Shown in pieces: positions 11,898 through 55,068 of a DNA stretch of 55,068 bases. This DNA comes from Bacteroidales bacterium. GTDB lineage: Bacteria; Bacteroidota; Bacteroidia; Bacteroidales; UBA932. The DNA lies in contig JAEELG010000081.1 of the NCBI GenBank assembly GCA_016288775.1, positions 1 through 55,068 of the forward strand. Reading direction: 5' to 3'. The position numbers and the translations under genes are program-made. A model generated the notes under the pieces. It did no database searches and had not been told where the DNA came from. It saw only the letters and a program-made list of their open reading frames with translations. Numbering within the stretch: position 1 is the first letter of the stretch; each line of letters opens with the position of its first letter.

Positions 11898-13997
11898 TCA
11901 GGATATGTTGCTATAGTCTTTGAAGTCGTATTTGCCCTTTCTGAGCTCCCGTGCCAGAAGCAGGTTTCCGGGAGCCTCGAGAGTGGGGTCGGAATCGAGC
12001 ACGCGCTGCGCGCAGGCACGCGCTTCCTCGAGCAAGGAGCCGTCGCGGGCCAGCGAGGCAATGTGAAGGTCTATGGGCATTCCGCTCTGCTGGGTGCCCT
12101 CCAGGTCGCCGGGACCGCGCATCTTCAGGTCCTTCTCGGCAATCTCGAAGCCGTCCTCGGTGGCGCACATCAGTTCAAGGCGCTCCTGGGCGTCCTTCCC
12201 GGTCTTGGGATCCTGCACAAGGATGCAGTAGGACTTCTCGGCGCCGCGCCCCACCCTTCCGCGCAGCTGGTGCAGCTGGCTGAGGCCGAAGCGCTGGGCG
12301 CTCCGGATCACCATCACGCTGGCGTTGGGCACATCCACGCCTACCTCTATGACGGTGGTAGAAACGAGTATCTGGGCGCGTCCCTCGACGAAAGCCTTCA
12401 TGTTGAAGGACTTCTGCTCGTTGCTCTGCTGCCCGTGGACGATCGCAACCTTGTAGCCCTCCTCGAGCGGGAAAGCCTTAACGATATCCTCGTAGCCCTG
12501 CTCCACGTTGCTTATGTCCTCCATCTTGTCGTTGATGAAGATCATGGGATACACCACGAACACCTGCCTGCCTTTTTTGATCTCGTCGCGCATGAAGCGG
12601 TACATGGCCGGAAGGCGGTTCTGCCCTATCAGCATGGTCTGCACCGGTTTGCGTCCCGGAGGCATCTCATCTATCACGGAAACGTCGAGGTCGCCGTAGA
12701 ACGTCATAGCCAAAGTGCGCGGTATAGGCGTGGCGGTCATTACGAGAATATGCGGAGGAATGCCGTTCGGTCCTTTGGCCCAGAGGCGGGAGCGCTGGCC
12801 AACGCCGAAGCGGTGCTGCTCGTCGATCACGGCAAGGCCGAGCGCCTTGTACTGCACCGGGTCCTCGATAAGCGCATGCGTGCCGACCACAATCCCGATG
12901 CTGCCGTCGGCAAGGCCTTCAAGTATGGGGCGCCGCTCCTTCTGGGTGGTGCTGCCGGTGAGCAGCGCACACTGCACCCCGGTGGGTTCAAGATATTTGC
13001 TGATATTGGCAAAGTGCTGGCGGGCAAGCACTTCGGTGGGAGCCATGATGCACGCCTGGTAGCCGTTGCCCACAGCTATCAGGCAGCTGAGCACCGCCAC
13101 CATCGTCTTGCCGGAGCCTACGTCGCCCTGCAGCAGGCGGTTCATCTGCCGCCCGCCGGAGAGGTCGGCACGGATCTCTTTTATCACACGCTGCTGCGCC
13201 CCGGTAAGCCGGTACGGAAGGGCGTTGTAGCAGCTGTGGAAGGGCGCACCCACCGCAGGCATCACCAGCCCCGTGTCGGCGCGGCTGCGCACATATTTCT
13301 GCTTGAGCAGCGACAGCTGGAGGTAGAACAGTTCCTCGAACTTCAGCCGGCGGGAAGCCATCTCCAGTGCCCGCATGTCGGCGGGAAAATGGATATTCTG
13401 CATCGCCACTCGGAGCGGACAGAGACCATATGCGTCGAGGATGTATTTGGGAAGCGTTTCCTGTACTTCCGGAAGGCAAAGGGCCAGCGCCGCCCGCTGC
13501 AGCTTGCACATCAGCTTGCCGGTAATGCCGCCCGCCTTGAGTTTCTCGGTGGCGGGATATACCCCGGTGAGGGTGCCGCGGGCATTAGGGTCCTGCTGCG
13601 GAGCGTCCACCTCCGGATGCACCATGTTGATGCGGCCGTTGTACTCCTGCGGCTTGCCGAAGAAGAGGAAGGTCGCGCCCGGCACCAGGCGGTCGAAGTT
13701 CCACTTGACGCCCTTGAAGAAGACCATCTCCATGCGGGCGGTGCCGTCGTCCACAATAACGCTCAGGTGTTTGATATTCACAAGGTTGCGGGAAACCACA
13801 GTGCCTTGAACCTGAACGTACGCAAGGTCCGGGGTGGCCGAAACGATAGGCGTTATGGTGCTGCGGTCGATGTAGCGGAATGGGTAGAAATGGATGAGGT
13901 CGTCGAGCGTATGCAGGTCCAGCTCCCTCTTGATGAGAGCCGCACGCTTGGGACCTACGCCGGGCAGGAACTGTATGTCGCTGGTCAATTCGCCCAT
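11898..13997 (-). CDS. recG: ATP-dependent DNA helicase RecG
   Basis: 699 aa; LLQGDVGSGKTMVA, VIDEQHRFGV, VMTATPIPRTLAMTFYGDLDVS, QLHQLRGRVGRGAEKSYC. Confidence 0.96.
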   Translation of the reverse strand: MGELTSDIQFLPGVGPKRAALIKRELDLHTLDDLIHFYPFRYIDRSTITPIVSATPDLAYVQVQGTVVSRNLVNIKHLSVIVDDGTARMEMVFFKGVKWNFDRLVPGATFLFFGKPQEYNGRINMVHPEVDAPQQDPNARGTLTGVYPATEKLKAGGITGKLMCKLQRAALALCLPEVQETLPKYILDAYGLCPLRVAMQNIHFPADMRALEMASRRLKFEELFYLQLSLLKQKYVRSRADTGLVMPAVGAPFHSCYNALPYRLTGAQQRVIKEIRADLSGGRQMNRLLQGDVGSGKTMVAVLSCLIAVGNGYQACIMAPTEVLARQHFANISKYLEPTGVQCALLTGSTTQKERRPILEGLADGSIGIVVGTHALIEDPVQYKALGLAVIDEQHRFGVGQRSRLWAKGPNGIPPHILVMTATPIPRTLAMTFYGDLDVSVIDEMPPGRKPVQTMLIGQNRLPAMYRFMRDEIKKGRQVFVVYPMIFINDKMEDISNVEQGYEDIVKAFPLEEGYKVAIVHGQQSNEQKSFNMKAFVEGRAQILVSTTVIEVGVDVPNASVMVIRSAQRFGLSQLHQLRGRVGRGAEKSYCILVQDPKTGKDAQERLELMCATEDGFEIAEKDLKMRGPGDLEGTQQSGMPIDLHIASLARDGSLLEEARACAQRVLDSDPTLEAPGNLLLARELRKGKYDFKDYSNIS

Positions 13998-42153: not shown

Positions 42154-42942
42154 TTATATCGCATCCTTATCAAATATATTGATTTTGAAATATTCAAACA
42201 AAAACAGCGGGAATCCATTCAACACAGCAATCTTCTCCCCGTCACACAGATACTTCCCGCATTGCCCTTCAAATATCCGCAGTTGAGCAACTGTCTCTTT
42301 ATCCTCCGGCACGGTGTCCCGCCCGGTGCATATATAACACGCCTTTGACGTATGCTGATGCACTAGCATAATCCAGTTGTCTTTAACCCTAAGATACTCT
42401 TGTTTTCCGAGCCTATGTCGGCCGCCATCCGGCAACTCTATAAAATCCAGACTCCCGTAATAACTAAACTCCCGAGCAATATCCTTAAAGGACCGAGCCA
42501 TGCAGTCGCATCGCGAAACAGTATACTCCACAAAATGCTCATCAGGAAGCTCCTTCGTATAGCAGAGAGACTCCACCATCGGATAGCTAACATACAACTT
42601 CCCATTATCAGTCTCATCGTCAAACATCTCCAGCATTTCCCGTAGCCGCTGGTTCATTTCCTCCAGCGTCAGATTCTCGTTTTGGAAGTCGAAATCGAAG
42701 AACAAATAGATTTCAGAGAAGTCCGATGAGCGGGCATTATCAGGCAGGCCATTGGCCTTGTTCTCCCTTAACACGGAGACGATGTCGCCATCGCCATCGA
42801 ACTCCTGCAACTGCCGATACAGTTCATATATGTTGTTCCCGAAGGAGCAGACAATCCTTTCCCCCTGGCCGAAGAACAGGCGCTCCAGCGTCCTGAAAAC
42901 CCTCGGTTCCCTCTCTGCCCCTTCAAAAACAAACAATATCAT
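42154..42942 (-). CDS. TOPRIM-like (RloB/AbiLii-like) protein, partner of the overlapping ATPase
   Basis: 262 aa; LFVFEGAEREPRVFRTLERLFF (Glu), EIYLFFDFDFQNENL (DxD), YPMVESL. 4-nt overlap with upstream gene. Confidence 0.65.
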   Translation of the reverse strand: MILFVFEGAEREPRVFRTLERLFFGQGERIVCSFGNNIYELYRQLQEFDGDGDIVSVLRENKANGLPDNARSSDFSEIYLFFDFDFQNENLTLEEMNQRLREMLEMFDDETDNGKLYVSYPMVESLCYTKELPDEHFVEYTVSRCDCMARSFKDIAREFSYYGSLDFIELPDGGRHRLGKQEYLRVKDNWIMLVHQHTSKACYICTGRDTVPEDKETVAQLRIFEGQCGKYLCDGEKIAVLNGFPLFLFEYFKINIFDKDAI

Positions 42943-44039
42943 ACCTTGAACGCGTTACCTCTGAACATCTTCTCGATATTGTGGCCAAAGCGGAGTTCCT
43001 TCTCCGTGCAGTCCACCAACGGCTTAATCTTGTTCTCGTTGAGAATAAAGTTGCAGTCCGGCCTCAGCAGGTCGTTCGTCATCAGGTAGGTGTTGTGAGA
43101 AGATGTGAAAACCTGGCAATCCTTCTTGAACAGGATCTTGCAAACCTCAAACGCCAGTTTGAAGTGGTAGAAAGCATCAAACTCATCGATGAAAACGAAG
43201 GTCGCCTGACCCATCCACTGCATCCAGAAATACAATAGTTCCAAAGACCTAGTACCAGTGGAAATGATATCCTTGAATTGAATTCGTTTTTTGTCTATTA
43301 GACAGAACAAGACCTTTTCGCCTGTTCGCGGGGGAGCAAACTCAAAACTCTGGTCACTAATATTCACAAGGAAACGGCGAAAATCATCTATCAACTTGTT
43401 TTTGATAATATACTCCTCAAAATCGTATATACCTGTTGCCAGTCCAATAAACTCACGCACATCCAGATTCCTGAACCATAGCATCCCATTCACGAACTGC
43501 TGCATCTTAATCAGATAATGATCCTTTGCCAACGGTATGGACATTAGGAGGAAGTTCACGATGGGGATATTATTGGCATTGTCTGCCAGGTTATGCTGGA
43601 TGGTTTTATCAATGGGGAAAGCCACCGTGTCAATGCTAAACTTCCCATCAGCACGTTTGAACACTGGTTTCCCATCAACCACCATTGCCTCTGCGGTCAT
43701 GATACCGTGATAGTCCTTGGAATAAGTATACTCCACAGTCTGCCCATCAAAACGGAACACATATTCAAACTCCACCTTCAGGTTAGGATCTCCTGCATAG
43801 GTAAAGTTGGCATAGTAATCCGCCTTCTTCCATTTCTGGGAAAGATGATTGACGATATCGAATATCGCGAGACTGAAATTGGTCTTTCCGGAGCCATTGG
43901 GACCATAAACGATACCATTCTTGATGATATCATCCTTAATGGCATACAGATTAAAGTTAAAGTTGCTGTGCCTTGTGAGGTCCAGCTCAATCTTTTCCTT
44001 AAATCCCCGGAAATTTTTTACGGAAAACTTAGCAAGCAT
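42939..44039 (-). CDS. AAA (ABC-type, AAA_15/21-like) ATPase, first gene of the ATPase-TOPRIM pair
   Basis: 366 aa; FSVKNFRGFKEKIEL, GIVYGPNGSGKTNFSLAI, FVFIDEFDAFYHFKLAF, QVFTSSHNTYL. Confidence 0.8.
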   Translation of the reverse strand: MLAKFSVKNFRGFKEKIELDLTRHSNFNFNLYAIKDDIIKNGIVYGPNGSGKTNFSLAIFDIVNHLSQKWKKADYYANFTYAGDPNLKVEFEYVFRFDGQTVEYTYSKDYHGIMTAEAMVVDGKPVFKRADGKFSIDTVAFPIDKTIQHNLADNANNIPIVNFLLMSIPLAKDHYLIKMQQFVNGMLWFRNLDVREFIGLATGIYDFEEYIIKNKLIDDFRRFLVNISDQSFEFAPPRTGEKVLFCLIDKKRIQFKDIISTGTRSLELLYFWMQWMGQATFVFIDEFDAFYHFKLAFEVCKILFKKDCQVFTSSHNTYLMTNDLLRPDCNFILNENKIKPLVDCTEKELRFGHNIEKMFRGNAFKV

Positions 44040-44805: not shown

Positions 44806-45708
44806 TTAAAACTTATCAATTATCTTTGCTATGTCCTTTTCTACCATCACAGTTCCGTCATCATCAATAAAAATATGGCCTTGTGATGTCTTCCTTTGAC
44901 AAACGATACCATCTTCAGAACTCATATTATTGTCCCCTTCGCAATAGTCAGTTGAGCTATATCTGCTATCCACATTTCGATTGTCGTCATCATTTGCTTT
45001 TTCGGAAACGATATTAAGCTTTTTAGTCTTGCCGTTTCTCATAGCATCAAAAAGTGCCGTACTAAATGAAGAACGGAGACCATGATGAGGGCACACTAGG
45101 AAGTCAACGCCCTGTCCAATTTTCTTTTTGATTTCATTGTTATACTCAAGTAGTTTCTTCATTCCCTCCTTTTGAATATCTGCCGCAAAGAATATCCTAT
45201 AACCAGAGTGAATATACAGAACAATTCCTATATTATTAGTATAGCTTTCGTCTTTAAGTGTTTCATCATTCTCCACCCATCCAGGGTAAATAAACCCAAT
45301 TGTCATCCGTGATGGATCGCATGACCTCAATGGAAGACATCTACCTTTATATGCCTCTTTTACGTTCTTTACTTCTTCACTCGTTGGATCGTCGACAAGG
45401 CTCCAATTAACGTTTTTATATTTCTCCTCCCCTTCCGACAGATCGTTTGGCGTGGTATACAGCGTGTAATGAAACCTTTCATTCATGGCATTCAGATCAG
45501 TAATATGGTCCCTGTGAGGATGCGAGAGGAACAATTGATCTATAGTATAATAATCCTTTTTTCCTTCTCGCCTTTCAAATAATGGAATTAGAAAATCATT
45601 CACTGGTGAGAAATCATTACTCTTTCCAAGATCAAAAACAATTCTTTTGTTTCCTAACTCAATATAGGCACTCAACGCTGGCCCAACATTAAATACGACT
45701 ACTTTCAT
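44806..45708 (-). CDS. metallo-beta-lactamase-fold hydrolase (ComEC/Rec2 C-domain-like)
   Basis: 300 aa; LFLSHPHRDHITDLNAM (HxHxDH), FFAADIQKEGMKKLLEY, LVCPHHGLRSSF. Confidence 0.8.
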   Translation of the reverse strand: MKVVVFNVGPALSAYIELGNKRIVFDLGKSNDFSPVNDFLIPLFERREGKKDYYTIDQLFLSHPHRDHITDLNAMNERFHYTLYTTPNDLSEGEEKYKNVNWSLVDDPTSEEVKNVKEAYKGRCLPLRSCDPSRMTIGFIYPGWVENDETLKDESYTNNIGIVLYIHSGYRIFFAADIQKEGMKKLLEYNNEIKKKIGQGVDFLVCPHHGLRSSFSTALFDAMRNGKTKKLNIVSEKANDDDNRNVDSRYSSTDYCEGDNNMSSEDGIVCQRKTSQGHIFIDDDGTVMVEKDIAKIIDKF

Positions 45709-45717
45709 ATGCTTTTA

Positions 45718-46428
45718 TTATTTGTTTTTATATGTACCTGTAAACGTTGCAAATAAATACTTGGCATAACTCCATCCTCTGGTTTCAAGCAACAGATAAC
45801 AACCAACCATCAACAACAACTGAATCAATAATGCTATCACTATAGCCCACCATGACAACCAATCACAAAAGATATTCGTGATACCCAGGCTCATTATGAG
45901 GATAATACTCCATACCCCAGCACCAAGATAGTTGCGGCAAAAACCAAACTCTATGTTATACTGTTTCAATAACTCGTCACCACGACAGTTTTGCCTGATT
46001 TGGGATACCACATCGGCTATCTTCTGCTTAGCCTTTTCCGGATCCATCTGTTCCTCCTTTTGAGTTGGCAACTTGATGCCAAATGTGTCTTTTACCTTTG
46101 CAGCAATCTCCTTGTGGTACTCTGGCGACATTGCCGCATTCTCCCACATAAGCATCTTGGTTGTTGGCATTTCAGTTTCGTCTTTCCTGAATAGCGGATA
46201 TTGAAACAACCACTTTGACGTTTCTCTAAATAGTTCACTTGCAAGATAACCTACAGACAGACTCACCAAACTAGTTCCTCCTATCATCCACGTTATCCAC
46301 TTTACATTACCCGCCACCGCTTGATACGTAGAAAGCCACTCACCAATACACATGGCAAGCAATATGCACATTGGGAGCACTCCCAAAATTGCGGGATAGA
46401 CCCTTGCGACTCTTATGTATTTATTCAT
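45718..46428 (-). CDS. predicted membrane protein paired with the MBL-fold gene
   Basis: From MNKYIRVARVYPAILG at 46428; two N-terminal and two C-terminal hydrophobic segments; 9-nt gap to the MBL gene. Confidence 0.65.
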   Translation of the reverse strand: MNKYIRVARVYPAILGVLPMCILLAMCIGEWLSTYQAVAGNVKWITWMIGGTSLVSLSVGYLASELFRETSKWLFQYPLFRKDETEMPTTKMLMWENAAMSPEYHKEIAAKVKDTFGIKLPTQKEEQMDPEKAKQKIADVVSQIRQNCRGDELLKQYNIEFGFCRNYLGAGVWSIILIMSLGITNIFCDWLSWWAIVIALLIQLLLMVGCYLLLETRGWSYAKYLFATFTGTYKNK

Positions 46429-46513
46429 CATTAAAAACACTATTAAATTGTGACTATTATCTCTCTGTTACACGTCCGAGATAACCATGATTCCCCAGTT
46501 CTTTTCTAAAGAG

Positions 46514-48434: not shown

Positions 48435-48583
48435 GTTTTCCCCGCTCCGGCACAGCGTCGCTGTCGCGCCGCAGAGCCTTCCGCTCCCCCCGCAGAGAGG
48501 CCGCACGCCAGGGCGTGCGCCCACTCTGCCTAAGCCACCGCACTCATTTCATTTTTTTGCAATTCTCGCATTTTTATTAAATG

Positions 48584-48814
48584 TCAGACATACTGGTTCA
48601 CCCTCCTATTCTCCTCAATCTTCCCAAGCAGCACCTTAAACTTCTCCACTCTCTCCCCCTTCATCTCCCCCTTATTCATCAGCTTCCTATTATGCTTAAT
48701 CCAATTAAGAATATCGTGCTCTTCTAAACGATGACGCGACGGATTTCTATGGTTCAACTCCATGAACTCCATCGCTTCCTCGTACTGCTTCATCCACCGT
48801 TCATCTTGGGTCAT
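48584..48814 (-). CDS. helicase-associated (HA)-domain stand-alone protein
   Basis: From ATG 48814: MTQDERWMKQYEEAMEFMELNHRNPSRHRLEEHDILNWIKHNRKLMNKGEMKGERVEKFKVLLGKI fits the HA repeat. Confidence 0.7.
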   Translation of the reverse strand: MTQDERWMKQYEEAMEFMELNHRNPSRHRLEEHDILNWIKHNRKLMNKGEMKGERVEKFKVLLGKIEENRRVNQYV

Positions 48815-48850
48815 TATCGTAAATAATATCAAATGATTAAAGAGCATAAA

Positions 48851-49597
48851 CTAAGATACAATCAGATGAGTAATCACTCCTGAAATGATCCCTAATACAA
48901 TTGTACCTAATACTGTTATTAGAATTAGATTTCTAACCTTACCTAGCCTGTTTAAGTATTTCACTTGCTCTCCTATTGCAAAACCTCCTTCTGGATATAA
49001 TTTCCCGACGACCCATCTTACTATAAACACTGACACTACGGCACAAATAGCAGAAATTCCATTAAGGAACAACATATTATATGTCTTATCTGCAAGTTGA
49101 GTTTTATCTGTCAGAGTAAAATAGGAAAATGCTGCTATTGCATACAATAAAATCCAAATAACAATATAAACAGGCGTTTTATGAATCCACCATAAAGGTT
49201 CTTGGGCATTCTTAACAAACTCATCAATCCTTTGGCTATAGAACACTATATCCTTCTCCTCCATATTGTTTAGGGTTAGGATACATGATTTATCAAATTT
49301 AGACAAATCGAATAAAGAGACAGAGAAGTCTTTATAGAACGAACGCTCTCGATGTTCTTTATTCCCGGAAATAACAATTTTGATAATACGCCTAGATTCA
49401 GGGTTGCTATAAGATAGGACCTCTTCTTTGTCACTCAAACTGTAGTTGGCACCATCCAATGTATATATTTTATATTCAACATCTACAAAACTGTCCTCTA
49501 TGAAAGAGGCGATATAATTAAAATGCTCCTCGTTGATAATCAATGAACGATCATAAGATTTTGTTAATTCTCCAATCATAATTCTAGTATTTATCAT
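48851..49597 (-). CDS. predicted membrane protein with cytoplasmic N-domain
   Basis: From MINTRIMIGELTKSY at 49597; RIIKIVISGNKEHRERSFYKDF; four hydrophobic segments at the C-terminus. Confidence 0.6.
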   Translation of the reverse strand: MINTRIMIGELTKSYDRSLIINEEHFNYIASFIEDSFVDVEYKIYTLDGANYSLSDKEEVLSYSNPESRRIIKIVISGNKEHRERSFYKDFSVSLFDLSKFDKSCILTLNNMEEKDIVFYSQRIDEFVKNAQEPLWWIHKTPVYIVIWILLYAIAAFSYFTLTDKTQLADKTYNMLFLNGISAICAVVSVFIVRWVVGKLYPEGGFAIGEQVKYLNRLGKVRNLILITVLGTIVLGIISGVITHLIVS

Positions 49598-50885
49598 GCA
49601 CAAACAACCCTGATATCCGCGCCAGCAACACCTCTGCCTCAACCTCAGTCTCTTTCGCCTTCACCCTCATATTGGTATAGGCAATATACACGAGGAAGGC
49701 CTTGAGAATAGCCATATCAAAACTCTCTGAAATCAAATACTCGCCATTTTGAATAAGCATGTACCCAGAAACAGCCAGAAGTACGAAGTACAGCAAATAC
49801 AAGATAAAAACCATATTACTGGGATGTGCCAGATAAAAGGCCAGTTGCTCCCTGTGCGATTCATAATCATGATTCCCCCAGTTCTTCAATGGAGAATGCC
49901 TGATAATCCATTTTGTCACAGGATAAACGGAACTAAGCACTGAGCCAACGACTATCACAATAAAAGCGATGGTCTCAGGTTTAAAAGCAAGCCATCCTAT
50001 TTTTGCTAGACCTGTCAGGATAATAGCCGGCACCCCAAAGGCAAATAAAACAATAAACAAGTAGGTCCCAGCTATCGTTATAAAAGGATGAGCCAAAGCC
50101 ACCAGCAGATAAACGAAAGCAATCGGCAACGACACTGTGTTCTTACATGCCCTCGTAACCCTTCCTGGCAACAGCCTGGCAATCCATCCCACCATCTCGT
50201 AAACAACGATATACCCTGCAATTACCAGCAATAGCCACCACCCCAATCTCATAATCAGCCATAATACACCGCAGAATGCGCCCCCGCCAACGAGAATGAT
50301 AGCAAAGATGTACACCCAAAGCTTGGCTTTAACTGGTAATTCTAACTTCTCCATGAATCTATGCCATCGCCTTGGATGAATTGTTCGTATATGCTCTTGA
50401 TTCCCGGAAACGACATGGGTTATATTGCATTCATAGTACCCTTCCGTCTTTTTATTAGGTTTATGATACTCTATAGGATACTCCCATACTTCGCCGTTCT
50501 TTAGCAAAACTAGAAAACACCTGCCTGTGATGATGGCATACGTCCCTTTAGTATCATAATGCACAAAACTCTTCACCACTTCAGTACCAGCAGCCATTGC
50601 CTCCGCCGCCACCATATCATCCATCAGTTTATGAACAGTCTTCTCTATGACCGCTTCATTCGCCTTTAAAGGAATTGTTGTCCACCACAAGAAGAGAAAG
50701 AAGAACAGAATGACGTTCGGAGCAAGCGAGTAATAGCTCCCATGAATGAAGTACTCCACCCCAGTGCCAACAGCGAGCAATATGGCCGCCAGAACTATTA
50801 TCCATGGCTTTTCAAACACCTGCCGTTCTGCAAAACGGAAGCATTTATTGCCGTTACTTGTCTGCCAACGTTCGTCCTGGGTCAT
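49584..50885 (-). CDS. predicted polytopic membrane protein
   Basis: 433 aa; many hydrophobic segments; ECNITHVVSGNQEHIRTIHPRRWHRF; overlaps the next gene by 14 nt. Confidence 0.65.
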   Translation of the reverse strand: MTQDERWQTSNGNKCFRFAERQVFEKPWIIVLAAILLAVGTGVEYFIHGSYYSLAPNVILFFFLFLWWTTIPLKANEAVIEKTVHKLMDDMVAAEAMAAGTEVVKSFVHYDTKGTYAIITGRCFLVLLKNGEVWEYPIEYHKPNKKTEGYYECNITHVVSGNQEHIRTIHPRRWHRFMEKLELPVKAKLWVYIFAIILVGGGAFCGVLWLIMRLGWWLLLVIAGYIVVYEMVGWIARLLPGRVTRACKNTVSLPIAFVYLLVALAHPFITIAGTYLFIVLFAFGVPAIILTGLAKIGWLAFKPETIAFIVIVVGSVLSSVYPVTKWIIRHSPLKNWGNHDYESHREQLAFYLAHPSNMVFILYLLYFVLLAVSGYMLIQNGEYLISESFDMAILKAFLVYIAYTNMRVKAKETEVEAEVLLARISGLFVHDKY

Positions 50886-50919
50886 TTCAAAGAATCATTA
50901 AGCATCAATCCCCGCTTCC

Positions 50920-52155
50920 TTATTCCGTTTGCTGCAATTCGCGTAGTTCTTCTTGTTTCTCTTTCAACTGCTTTTTAAGTGCAGCGTTTACTGCCGTTAG
51001 TACCTCCTTTTCAGCCTCATGCACCAATCGAGAGACCTCCCCTACGGACTCCGAGACTACTTTTACCTTGTCATGGCATTGCTGATTGGTATCAAACACA
51101 TATTGAATCTCACTAATATCCTTAAACGAGGAGGACACTTTCACAATTTCATTCATTCTCTCCAACAGCGCCCTTGAAAGCATCAGGGTTGTCTGCTGGT
51201 GGTTTAATATATCATCTATCCGTCCCTGGTACTCTTGCAGTTTAGTCAATTCACGATTACCTGTAAGGACATAATTCTTAATCTCACCAAGCTCTTTTTC
51301 TTCTTCAACACACTTCTTGGTTTGCTTTTCAACTGACTGTAGCTCTTTGTGGCAGGCATCTAAAACGCCATATCCCATTCTGTTCTTTGAAATCTCGTGG
51401 AAAGTATCTTCCTTGGTCGCTCCAGCGTACAAATACTTATCAATGATTTCATCAAATCTCCTTACAACCTTATTCCCGAAATTAAGTTTGAACAAAACAT
51501 ATAATAGAATCAAGATAGCTGCTACACAAGCAGCAAACTCGAAATCCGGTGATAGGATTTGACTCCCTGCCAATTTAAACGACTGTGTCCCAATGATGCT
51601 ATAGACACCGCCCATAATTGATTCAAAAGCCACATTCACCCAAACCCAAGGCAAAATCATCTCACTAAAGAAAGATGGCACCACCTTTTCTTTTTGGCAT
51701 AGGGCCAGAATGAGGACTATCGTGTATGCAATTATTACAGTAACCCATAGCCAGAAAACGAGGTTGCACCCATTTAATATGGCTATCATTATTGTGGACG
51801 TTATCGCACAAATATAGACAAAGACTATCTTCACTATGGGCATCACCTCCTTCATCATTCTCACCTTTGAGAAATCCACGGCTCGTTGCCGCTTAAAGAG
51901 GTTTACCCAAGAATGGTAGGTCAAGAAGAACGCAATGATAAATCCTGTGTTGTACAAGACCTTCACCACCTCTAACGAAGGGCTCTTACTCAACACAGCA
52001 TACCCTGTACATATGGCTGTAATAATTGCACCAGCTAATGCCCAATTGTTCCACCCGTGGAATTCGCTGAGACTATTCTCTCTATCCCTCTCAGAATACA
52101 GGAATGACAGGAACTCCGTATCTGACATATTTGTGATATGCTGTGTATCCTTCAT
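50920..52155 (-). CDS. predicted membrane protein with C-terminal coiled coil
   Basis: 411 aa; six or more N-terminal hydrophobic segments then ~170-aa helical region ending EAEKEVLTAVNAALKKQLKEKQEELRELQQTE. Confidence 0.65.
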   Translation of the reverse strand: MKDTQHITNMSDTEFLSFLYSERDRENSLSEFHGWNNWALAGAIITAICTGYAVLSKSPSLEVVKVLYNTGFIIAFFLTYHSWVNLFKRQRAVDFSKVRMMKEVMPIVKIVFVYICAITSTIMIAILNGCNLVFWLWVTVIIAYTIVLILALCQKEKVVPSFFSEMILPWVWVNVAFESIMGGVYSIIGTQSFKLAGSQILSPDFEFAACVAAILILLYVLFKLNFGNKVVRRFDEIIDKYLYAGATKEDTFHEISKNRMGYGVLDACHKELQSVEKQTKKCVEEEKELGEIKNYVLTGNRELTKLQEYQGRIDDILNHQQTTLMLSRALLERMNEIVKVSSSFKDISEIQYVFDTNQQCHDKVKVVSESVGEVSRLVHEAEKEVLTAVNAALKKQLKEKQEELRELQQTE

Positions 52156-52186
52156 TTCTCTTAATTAATCCAAACCTCATCCTGCC

Positions 52187-53221
52187 TCATTCCCCCTCCT
52201 CCGCTTCAATCTCCTTGGCTATCATCTTATATCTTCCCCTTATCTCTTCTCTCTGATAGAACTCCAACAAATCCATCTTGCTCAAATACCCATCCTCCAG
52301 ATACTTTGCCAGATACTTCTGGTCAAACTCTATCGAGAGCAGGCTCTTCTCTATGTTCTTCAGTATCTGCTGGTTATTCTTGATATTCATCTTCACCAGC
52401 GTCCCAATGCTCTGCACATCACGGATATCTTTCAGTAGCCGCTGGATGAGCATATTCACAAACTCCACTTCCACATTCTTCCCGTCCTTCCGCAATGCCA
52501 ACCCTCGGGCAAGGTTATACGCTACTGCCAGATTCTGGTAATCAGATGCTTCATAGTCGATAATACAGATAAAACCAATACCATCCACATACGACACACC
52601 ATCTACGGCACGCTGAATAGAAGCGTCCGCCAGCGTCTTGTCAAACACAATGATGCTCGCATTGGTATCCCTGTTCACAGTCGCTTCCAGCAACTGGCTC
52701 CATGCCGTGTCATACTTGTTCGATGCGATATCCGGCGAATCCACATCGCCCATCTTGATGCTCTTGTCAAACTTGCACTCAATGGCCACTTTCCGTCCGC
52801 TGCTCTCACCGCCGACGTATGCCATAATGTCGCCCGTCTTGTTATTCTTTAACAATCCTTTCGACGTTCCTGTCAGCGACACCACATCTCCCAGATGATT
52901 CCGCTCGATATACTCCTCCAGGAAATCAAGAATATCATTCTCAGCCGCCACACCCTTGATAGCCGTTTTATGGAACACCTCCTGCTTCATGTCAAACAGC
53001 AGTTTCAGGTTCTCCAACTGCACTCCCAGGTCATCTGTGGTCTTCGACAAGAAAGCTGAGAACCTGTCTTCCATCGTAGCCAGCACGCCTATCCGGATTG
53101 CGCGAAGCAGAGCCGCCTCGCGTTCTGTCTCCGGCAAGGAGTCAAAATATCTGTAAACTAGCTCGTCCGAGATTTCAAAACTATCAACCTGAACGCGCTG
53201 TAACTTATGGTCTATTCGCAT
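52187..53221 (-). CDS. putative PD-(D/E)XK-type nuclease associated with HerA
   Basis: 344 aa; AENDILDFLEEYIE...TGDIMAYVGGESSGRKVAIECKFDKS (E...D...ExK arrangement). Confidence 0.65.
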   Translation of the reverse strand: MRIDHKLQRVQVDSFEISDELVYRYFDSLPETEREAALLRAIRIGVLATMEDRFSAFLSKTTDDLGVQLENLKLLFDMKQEVFHKTAIKGVAAENDILDFLEEYIERNHLGDVVSLTGTSKGLLKNNKTGDIMAYVGGESSGRKVAIECKFDKSIKMGDVDSPDIASNKYDTAWSQLLEATVNRDTNASIIVFDKTLADASIQRAVDGVSYVDGIGFICIIDYEASDYQNLAVAYNLARGLALRKDGKNVEVEFVNMLIQRLLKDIRDVQSIGTLVKMNIKNNQQILKNIEKSLLSIEFDQKYLAKYLEDGYLSKMDLLEFYQREEIRGRYKMIAKEIEAEEGE

Positions 53222-53224
53222 ACT

Positions 53225-53437
53225 CTATACCTGGGAATAGCGATAGCCGCCTTTCTTTATATATGCATCAAGATACCTTCCGTGAGAATCTGCTGACATC
53301 AGCCCGTCATACAAACTTTGGGGCACATCATAATACTGATATACTGCACCCGTTTTAAACTCCACTTCCAATGTCATGCTGGAAGGGTCGTAACCGATTG
53401 ATAAAATGTGTGATGATGATACAAATTGTCTTTCCAT
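53225..53437 (-). CDS. KTSC-domain protein
   Basis: 70 aa; SSHILSIGYDPSSMTLEVEFKTGAVYQYYDVPQSLYDGLMSADSHGRYLDAYIK. Confidence 0.82.
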   Translation of the reverse strand: MERQFVSSSHILSIGYDPSSMTLEVEFKTGAVYQYYDVPQSLYDGLMSADSHGRYLDAYIKKGGYRYSQV

Positions 53438-53449
53438 AACCTTTGTCTT

Positions 53450-55068
53450 TTATAAATTGATTTGTTGTAATCGCCATGCTCTGACAATGTCCGGGTAGTC
53501 TTTTTCTTCTATGTTCAAGACATTATTCCATCCGCCCTTGTCATCCTTATCCGAGGATACTTCAGGATCATTGCTGTCTGGTCTTCTTGCCTTGTCAGGG
53601 AATGTAATATTTGCTCGCATGGGCATTCTTACTGCTTCTCCTACAATAATAGACTCTCCTGTTTTCAATATCGGGAGCATATTAATCAGATTCGATAAAT
53701 TATCCGAGACCGTATTCGCAATTATTCCTCTGTCATTTGAATTGGTAAGTCTTAATGCTATCGTTGTACCACATTGTGACAAAATTGTTGTGTCTATTTC
53801 CGATGGGCGCTGACTCACAATCATTGCGCTGATTCCATACTTCCTACCCTCTTTCACTATCCGTCTCACAATACTTGACGCACGGCTATTATTTCCACTC
53901 CCCAAATAATTATGGGCTTCCTCCATAATAATGAGTAACGGACGATTTCTTCCTCCCTGAGACAGGTTACGTCCCCAGAACAATGAGTCATACATCACAC
54001 GAAGTAGAATGCCAATAATATCATGCAGAATACTTCCTGGTACACCCGACACGTCAAAAACGGAAAGAGGCTTCTCGCCCATCCATAATTTCAGTAGGGC
54101 ATGAATGTCGTTGTCTATCTTTCCATCCTTGTCTGGTACATATCCTTCTGGCTTATATGCAAAATCAAATCTTGAGTCCGTCAACTTGGCTTGTAGTGAT
54201 ATCAATTGCCGCTTCACCGACATTGGGGTTGCAGAAAGATAGACCCTGCTCTGCTGTTGCTCCTGATATCTTGGTAAAACAAAAGGTTCTATGCTGCCCG
54301 TACATTTCGAGCCATCTGCGTCTTGAGCAAAAGCCTCCGTTGTTTTTGTCTCATCAAAATCTTCATAGATGGCACAGAACTTTTGACCTGTTCCAGTACA
54401 AATATGAGTAGAAAACATAAGCCGATACAAATGAAGGAACAATCGTTTCAGACTGAATGGTATTGGTGTATCCACAGTAATTGCATCCTTGCTCAGATAT
54501 GAGAACAGACCAGGATTCTTCTCAACTGTTAGTTTTTTCAGAGCCAACACCATTTCAGACAGCGGGAATCGGTCATTGTCAGAAACATCGCCAAATGCAA
54601 AACTCACAAATTCATCAAAACTCATTGCCCAATAGGGAACTACAAGTTTATGCTCAGTGGCATCCTCAGGGGTTATCCTGAATATATTTGCCCTGTCCTT
54701 AAACGTCTTGCCATATTCGCCATGTATATCCATCAGAATAATACGGGAAGATGGAAATTTTTGTTGGTCTATCAGCGTATTCACCAATCCGGCAACTGTT
54801 GTAGATTTGCCGGTGCCCGTAGAGCCAACTATAGAGCAATGCCTGCTTACCAACTTATTCACATCCACCAGCGCAGGTATATTCTCTGCTCCTGAGATGG
54901 TTCCTACAGAGACGAATTCTGAACCTTGCTGTCTTCCATATATGTTAACCAAATCCTCTTCCGTCACAATATGAACTTCCTGCACAATCGTCGGGTACCG
55001 CGATATCACAGGTACAAAAGGTTGCCCCAATGCTCTCGCACCTGCCGACGGAACAGTCACCCACCGGA
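53450..55068 (-). CDS. HerA-like ATPase (DUF87), 5' end off the window
   Basis: HCSIVGSTGTGKSTTVAGLVNTLI (Walker A), ILMDIHGEYG, LLIIMEEAHNYLG (Walker B), SAMIVSQRPSEIDTTILSQCGTTIALRLTN. The GTG at 55060 is not clearly the true start; the frame is open to the edge. Confidence 0.88.
   Translation of the reverse strand, partial: RWVTVPSAGARALGQPFVPVISRYPTIVQEVHIVTEEDLVNIYGRQQGSEFVSVGTISGAENIPALVDVNKLVSRHCSIVGSTGTGKSTTVAGLVNTLIDQQKFPSSRIILMDIHGEYGKTFKDRANIFRITPEDATEHKLVVPYWAMSFDEFVSFAFGDVSDNDRFPLSEMVLALKKLTVEKNPGLFSYLSKDAITVDTPIPFSLKRLFLHLYRLMFSTHICTGTGQKFCAIYEDFDETKTTEAFAQDADGSKCTGSIEPFVLPRYQEQQQSRVYLSATPMSVKRQLISLQAKLTDSRFDFAYKPEGYVPDKDGKIDNDIHALLKLWMGEKPLSVFDVSGVPGSILHDIIGILLRVMYDSLFWGRNLSQGGRNRPLLIIMEEAHNYLGSGNNSRASSIVRRIVKEGRKYGISAMIVSQRPSEIDTTILSQCGTTIALRLTNSNDRGIIANTVSDNLSNLINMLPILKTGESIIVGEAVRMPMRANITFPDKARRPDSNDPEVSSDKDDKGGWNNVLNIEEKDYPDIVRAWRLQQINL

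Follow-up and report, generated by a model that had tools for sequence, protein, structure and literature searches.

This analysis concerns the right end of a 55,068-nucleotide stretch of Bacteroidales DNA (the window), which is contig G000:C102, one contig of a 2.3-Mb Bacteroidota assembly that is 83.6% complete. The region between 48.4 and 55.1 kb probably contains the 3' end of a four-gene anti-phage cassette, SIR2-HerA-KTSC-PD-(D/E)XK nuclease, and beyond it two or three unrelated cassettes (MemA; MemB-MemC) and an HA gene with a structured element, R1. The core of the four-gene cassette is a Nezha-type SIR2-HerA NADase (NAD+-hydrolysing) system with two accessory genes, KTSC and the nuclease. 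A preliminary description had listed seven minus-strand open reading frames here and read them as one undescribed defence system. The seven frames lie where it placed them, with spacers of 3 to ~36 nucleotides (nt), and a defence role is supported; the core, on the other hand, matches a known type, and the seven genes do not travel together. From the right end, the order on the minus strand is HerA, KTSC, nuclease, MemA, MemB, MemC and HA, after which comes a convergent, AbiLi-like AAA gene.

The HerA-like ATPase (53450..55066, minus strand) is open at its 5' end, which is lost at the contig end, and 538 C-terminal amino acids (aa) remain. The alignment to the best PADLOC HerA profile begins at profile position 105, and the relatives in three related loci (L007, L008 and L010) are 621-622 aa long and start ~85 residues earlier, which indicates that the operon runs on past the contig end. 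Both the Walker A (GSTGTGKS) and Walker B (LLIIMEE) motifs are intact in the window. The protein matches the PADLOC antiphage HerA model PDLC04105 with an E-value of 1.4e-134 and the solved chain 8wiv_A with 1e-145, and it is in part on these matches that the claim of an undescribed system falls.

A SIR2 gene presumably lies upstream of the window HerA, beyond the contig end. Among the relatives that have HerA and a complete upstream side, SIR2 stands directly upstream of HerA in six of six. The PADLOC SIR2 model is matched at 1.7e-128; the SIR2 protein in L010 matches SIR2_2 (6.4e-19) and the solved SIR2 chain 8w9l_A (7e-91), and the PDB entries 8wld, 8woc, 8wod and 8wof contain both SIR2 and HerA sequences. 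In the relatives the catalytic N and H motifs (FTTNYD and KLHGS) are intact, and the proteins are predicted to be NADases.

The second gene in the window encodes a 70-aa KTSC protein (53225..53437, minus strand), which scores 85.7 bits against PF13619 (E 1.7e-24), well above the gathering score of 25. KTSC is found directly 3' of HerA in 14 related loci. The full order SIR2-HerA-KTSC-nuclease is complete in L006, L007, L008, L010, L042 and L046, spanning Bacteroidota and Alphaproteobacteria: these are three metagenome-assembled genomes (MAGs) of Bacteroidales, another Bacteroidota genome (L042), a Paracoccus plasmid and a contig of a viral catalogue (L046). L009 is cut at a contig edge and is not counted among the complete loci. 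When the nuclease is used as a tracer, homologues are encoded on the Paracoccus plasmid (48.5% identity), in five Bacteroidales MAG loci, and in L042 and L046. That HerA, KTSC and an ExK-type nuclease form one recurrent unit, as had been proposed, is thus borne out by the order in related loci. Eight proteobacterial plasmids (L012-L019) have SIR2-HerA-KTSC without the nuclease; in the loci examined, therefore, this HerA clade always has KTSC as its third gene, with the nuclease as an optional fourth. We looked for a mention of KTSC in a set of SIR2-HerA papers and found none there, and a search for experimental papers on the KTSC protein or the nuclease of a HerA-KTSC-nuclease unit likewise returned nothing.

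The nuclease (52187..53221, minus strand; 344 aa) ends in long C-terminal helices. Nine homologues all keep its residues E94, D131, E148-x-K150 and Q176, which make up the classic PD-(D/E)XK set. The family assignment of the preliminary description holds for these residues, while the window protein has no Pfam match of its own; it is the L042 homologue (49% identical) that passes PDDEXK_15 (PF24608), with 30.7 bits against a cut-off of 27, over the part that carries the catalytic residues (91-206). A full-length nuclease occurs in only one of 297 genomes of the phylum besides the window. Matches in G228, G199 and G852 were rejected as fragments or false, and a search in phages found no nuclease.

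When window positions 52187-55066 are compared with L007:7912-11035, the nuclease is 96% identical, HerA 66% and KTSC 66%. This unevenness suggests recombination within the cassette.

Several points weigh against the four-gene reading. SIR2 was searched for in the rest of the assembly and none was found; as the assembly is incomplete and the contig ends inside HerA, we consider this neutral to weakly negative. Further, L011 encodes a nuclease homologue (48%; L011:9965-11026) with no HerA, KTSC or SIR2 nearby. Structure prediction gave a weak model of the nuclease, and no fold match reached significance: with six close sequences AlphaFold reached a predicted local distance difference test (pLDDT) of only 34, and with seven sequences 59, giving a plausible alpha/beta core. 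The top PDB matches of this model are mostly restriction endonucleases at E > 0.1, with an Mrr-domain viral protein at 4e-3. Finally, it is from gene order that we infer the tie of KTSC and the nuclease to the SIR2-HerA complex.

The missing SIR2 leads to the alternative that fares best, namely a HerA-KTSC-nuclease system without a sirtuin, in which the nuclease replaces SIR2 as the effector. Such variants are described in the relevant passage of PMC9503650, and a SIR2 gene was seen in neither the window nor the assembly. Yet every one of the six relatives with a complete upstream side, including loci whose nucleases are 86-96% identical to that of the window, has SIR2 directly upstream of HerA, and we regard this alternative as improbable.

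In the four-gene cassette, HerA would form a hexameric DNA translocase that acts as a scaffold for SIR2 oligomers. On infection SIR2 would hydrolyse NAD+ and stop phage and cell together. The HerA ring would be joined by KTSC, which is predicted to be a DNA-binding adaptor, and by the nuclease, to which the ring would feed DNA, so that NAD+ depletion and DNA cutting could be combined in a dual effector. The parts assigned to KTSC and the nuclease in the complex are our proposal.

The three genes that follow encode membrane proteins, as had been stated, one of them with a coiled coil. MemA (50920..52155, minus strand; 411 aa) has four transmembrane (TM)-like segments and then the coiled coil, MemB (49584..50885, minus strand; 433 aa) has ~8, and MemC (48851..49579, minus strand; ~242 aa) has three. 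The start of MemC was taken from its homologue in L029, and an upstream TTG was not accepted as start. In the preliminary description these proteins, together with HA, belonged to the same system as HerA, which would make them effectors of a HerA core. The shared strand, the short spacers and the TM segments agree with this. However, MemA, MemB and MemC are absent from all 14 other HerA-KTSC loci examined. Among 295 genomes of the order their homologues are rare, lie apart from each other and never occur with HerA; instead each is found by itself in a restriction-modification (R-M) island of type I or type III. A MemC homologue (39%) is located after an AbiH-like gene within an island of type I R-M; the same genome has a second type I R-M locus, next to which, at a contig edge, are MemA homologues (23-26%); and a homologue of the C-terminal half of MemB (30%) is found in a type III R-M island. 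Weak MemA matches in L022-L024 (L032, L033) were rejected as due to composition, and MemA and MemB were searched for in plasmids and viral contigs without a find. Recurrence of the gene order, which the preliminary description had offered as its check, thus holds for HerA-KTSC-nuclease and fails for the membrane genes with HerA.

The block itself also carries signs of junctions. The window has three occurrences of M.QDE.W, the first codons of HA genes (at 52190, 50885 and 48814). Every one lies within this block and on its strand, and 100 shuffles gave none. One copy is the start of HA itself. Another is a remnant (52161..52190, minus strand) that reads MRQDEVWIN and then a stop, and overlaps the end of the nuclease gene; the third, MTQDERW (50865..50885, minus strand), is fused to the start of MemB. 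Such copies inside a tightly packed block point to junctions rather than to one operon. The simplest account of the block is an array: [SIR2]-HerA-KTSC-nuclease, HA remnant, MemA, HA remnant, MemB-MemC, HA-R1.

Taken together, this makes a seven-gene system very improbable. A version limited to this lineage, in which MemA, MemB and MemC are membrane effectors cooperating with the HerA core here only, would fit the tight packing and the fact that all homologues of these genes lie in defence islands; given the lack of a second example and the junction remnants between the units, we find it no more credible than that. MemA, MemB and MemC look like independent defence-island genes, separate from the HerA unit. 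The idea that HerA and the nuclease process DNA ends in repair, to which their resemblance in outline to archaeal HerA-NurA might lead, is the least credible of all, since the best matches are to antiphage, SIR2-associated HerA models, the NCBIfam repair HerA (NF040819) scores 128.7 bits against a cut-off of 970, and the nuclease is patchily distributed, carried on plasmids and found in an island context.

Other genes around the block can be compared with L007. Where the window has MemA, MemB and MemC, L007 has two others, a PIN gene and one encoding 258 aa; further along, L007 keeps the metallo-beta-lactamase of the window (92%) and its membrane partner (77%). This pair, a metallo-beta-lactamase-fold protein and a small membrane protein (window 44806-46440; L007:14959-16662), stands beside SIR2-HerA and resembles the candidate PADLOC system PDC-M48B. 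At 42154-44039 the window has a strong match to another PADLOC candidate system, PDC-M12 (A 2.6e-126, B 1.1e-69).

The last gene of the block (48584..48814, minus strand) encodes a 76-aa HA-domain protein, its start set from relatives. It scores 26.7 bits (E 6.9e-6) against PF03457, slightly below the gathering score of 28.4, and shares 63% identity with a Segatella protein annotated as HA, and for these reasons we call it HA-like. The stand-alone gene that had been described is thus present, though as a separate and widely scattered gene rather than a member of the HerA system. An intact or degenerate HA follows the nuclease in L007 and L008. Elsewhere HA comes after Hachiman (L045/L054; HamA and HamB at 1e-128 or better), before QatABCD (L052; QatA, QatC and QatD matched) and before a 723-aa gene (L044). 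Copies of HA or truncated HA starts were seen in L007, L008, L044, L045, L052, L053 and L055, and also near polysaccharide loci. HA is not a high-copy repeat in the genome of the window, which has one full copy. Among the papers accessible to the search, none dealt with HA domains and Bacteroidales defence or with Bacteroidales cassettes.

R1 (48441..48544, minus strand) is a covarying structured element of ~105 nt, with a stem P1 and three hairpins; 6 nt separate its end from the stop codon of the AAA gene that converges on the block. In general R1 lies downstream of HA, or of cargo that follows HA. The model was built from three copies, and further copies were then found in L007, L044, L052, L053 and L054. 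The eight copies are that of the window, L007:11584-11689, L007:907-1013, L044:12051-12154, L052:9432-9536, L053:9207-9302, and L054:3283-3386 and 12185-12306. Across them two-sided changes occur in 20 of 34 pairs, and 90% of the alignment cells pair compared with 32-50% in slid controls, although these counts lean towards structure because the copies were aligned to the model. An independent MAFFT seed alignment of three R1 sequences already had 11 two-sided pairs. Relative to the stop codon of a same-strand gene, the start of every one of the eight copies falls within -5 to +39 nt, which random same-strand placement gives in 4%, and the preceding genes are often defence genes.

Few genomes carry R1 (3 of 130 and 3 of 178). 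Three genomes of the family sample have R1, and it is these same three that have HA; both further genomes of the order with R1 carry HA within ~8 kb. Rfam scans of the window, L007 and L045 gave no match for R1 at gathering score and only chance matches in E-value mode, and an exact-pattern search in viral contigs found none. The repeat D1 (40160/44121) was set aside as an unrelated terminator-like element.

HA and R1 could, tentatively, form a system at Bacteroidales cassette boundaries that gathers defence modules, by integron-type capture or as another site-specific insertion unit; we hold this to be possible but doubtful. If so, cargo genes would enter beside HA and ahead of R1, and every insertion would leave an HA start behind. 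The pair may drive insertion, may be carried along passively as a trace of homologous exchange, or may be an RNA regulator. Were it a true capture device, the HA/R1 marker would serve as a handle for finding Bacteroidales defence modules. The likeness to integron attC sites is that a structured element of ~100 nt follows directly after the stop of variable genes, with the fold kept and the sequence variable. On the other hand no integrase is seen and the conserved core sequence and fold differ; the comparison is an analogy.

For the HerA cassette, the comparison with archaeal HerA-NurA is limited to the combination of HerA and a nuclease. NurA belongs to a nuclease family other than the present PD-(D/E)XK nuclease, and PADLOC and NCBIfam group the present HerA with antiphage models. 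HerA-DUF4297 likewise combines a HerA ring and an effector in a defence operon, but DUF4297 is absent here and the effector adjoining HerA in the relatives is SIR2.

Closer are the neighbourhoods mentioned in PMC9503650, where HerA, KTSC and an endoDNase share an operon and where a DNA-binding or adaptor role of KTSC was predicted. In the passage concerned, a single sentence from 2022 reporting an unpublished observation, this combination occurs "in lieu of" the sirtuin, whereas SIR2 and the nuclease are found together in all six complete loci here. From the mutual exclusion of sirtuin and endoDNase that source argues that the sirtuin modifies (ADP-ribosylates) DNA; the co-occurrence of SIR2 and the PD-(D/E)XK nuclease in six loci contradicts, for this clade, the exclusivity argument.

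The closest likeness is to Nezha/SIR2-HerA of V. cholerae and E. coli: in the relatives a gene for a NADase of SIR2_2 type stands immediately before HerA, and the homology to the solved chains is near full-length. Nezha protects V. cholerae by NAD+ depletion and requires both the NADase residues and herA, and its SIR2:HerA complex has a 12:6 stoichiometry (PMC11559045). The present cassette differs in having two more genes, KTSC and the PD-(D/E)XK nuclease. Since no examined locus of the clade lacks KTSC in third place, constructs of this clade with only SIR2 and HerA may miss a component, and the cassette offers a testable, putative dual-effector system.

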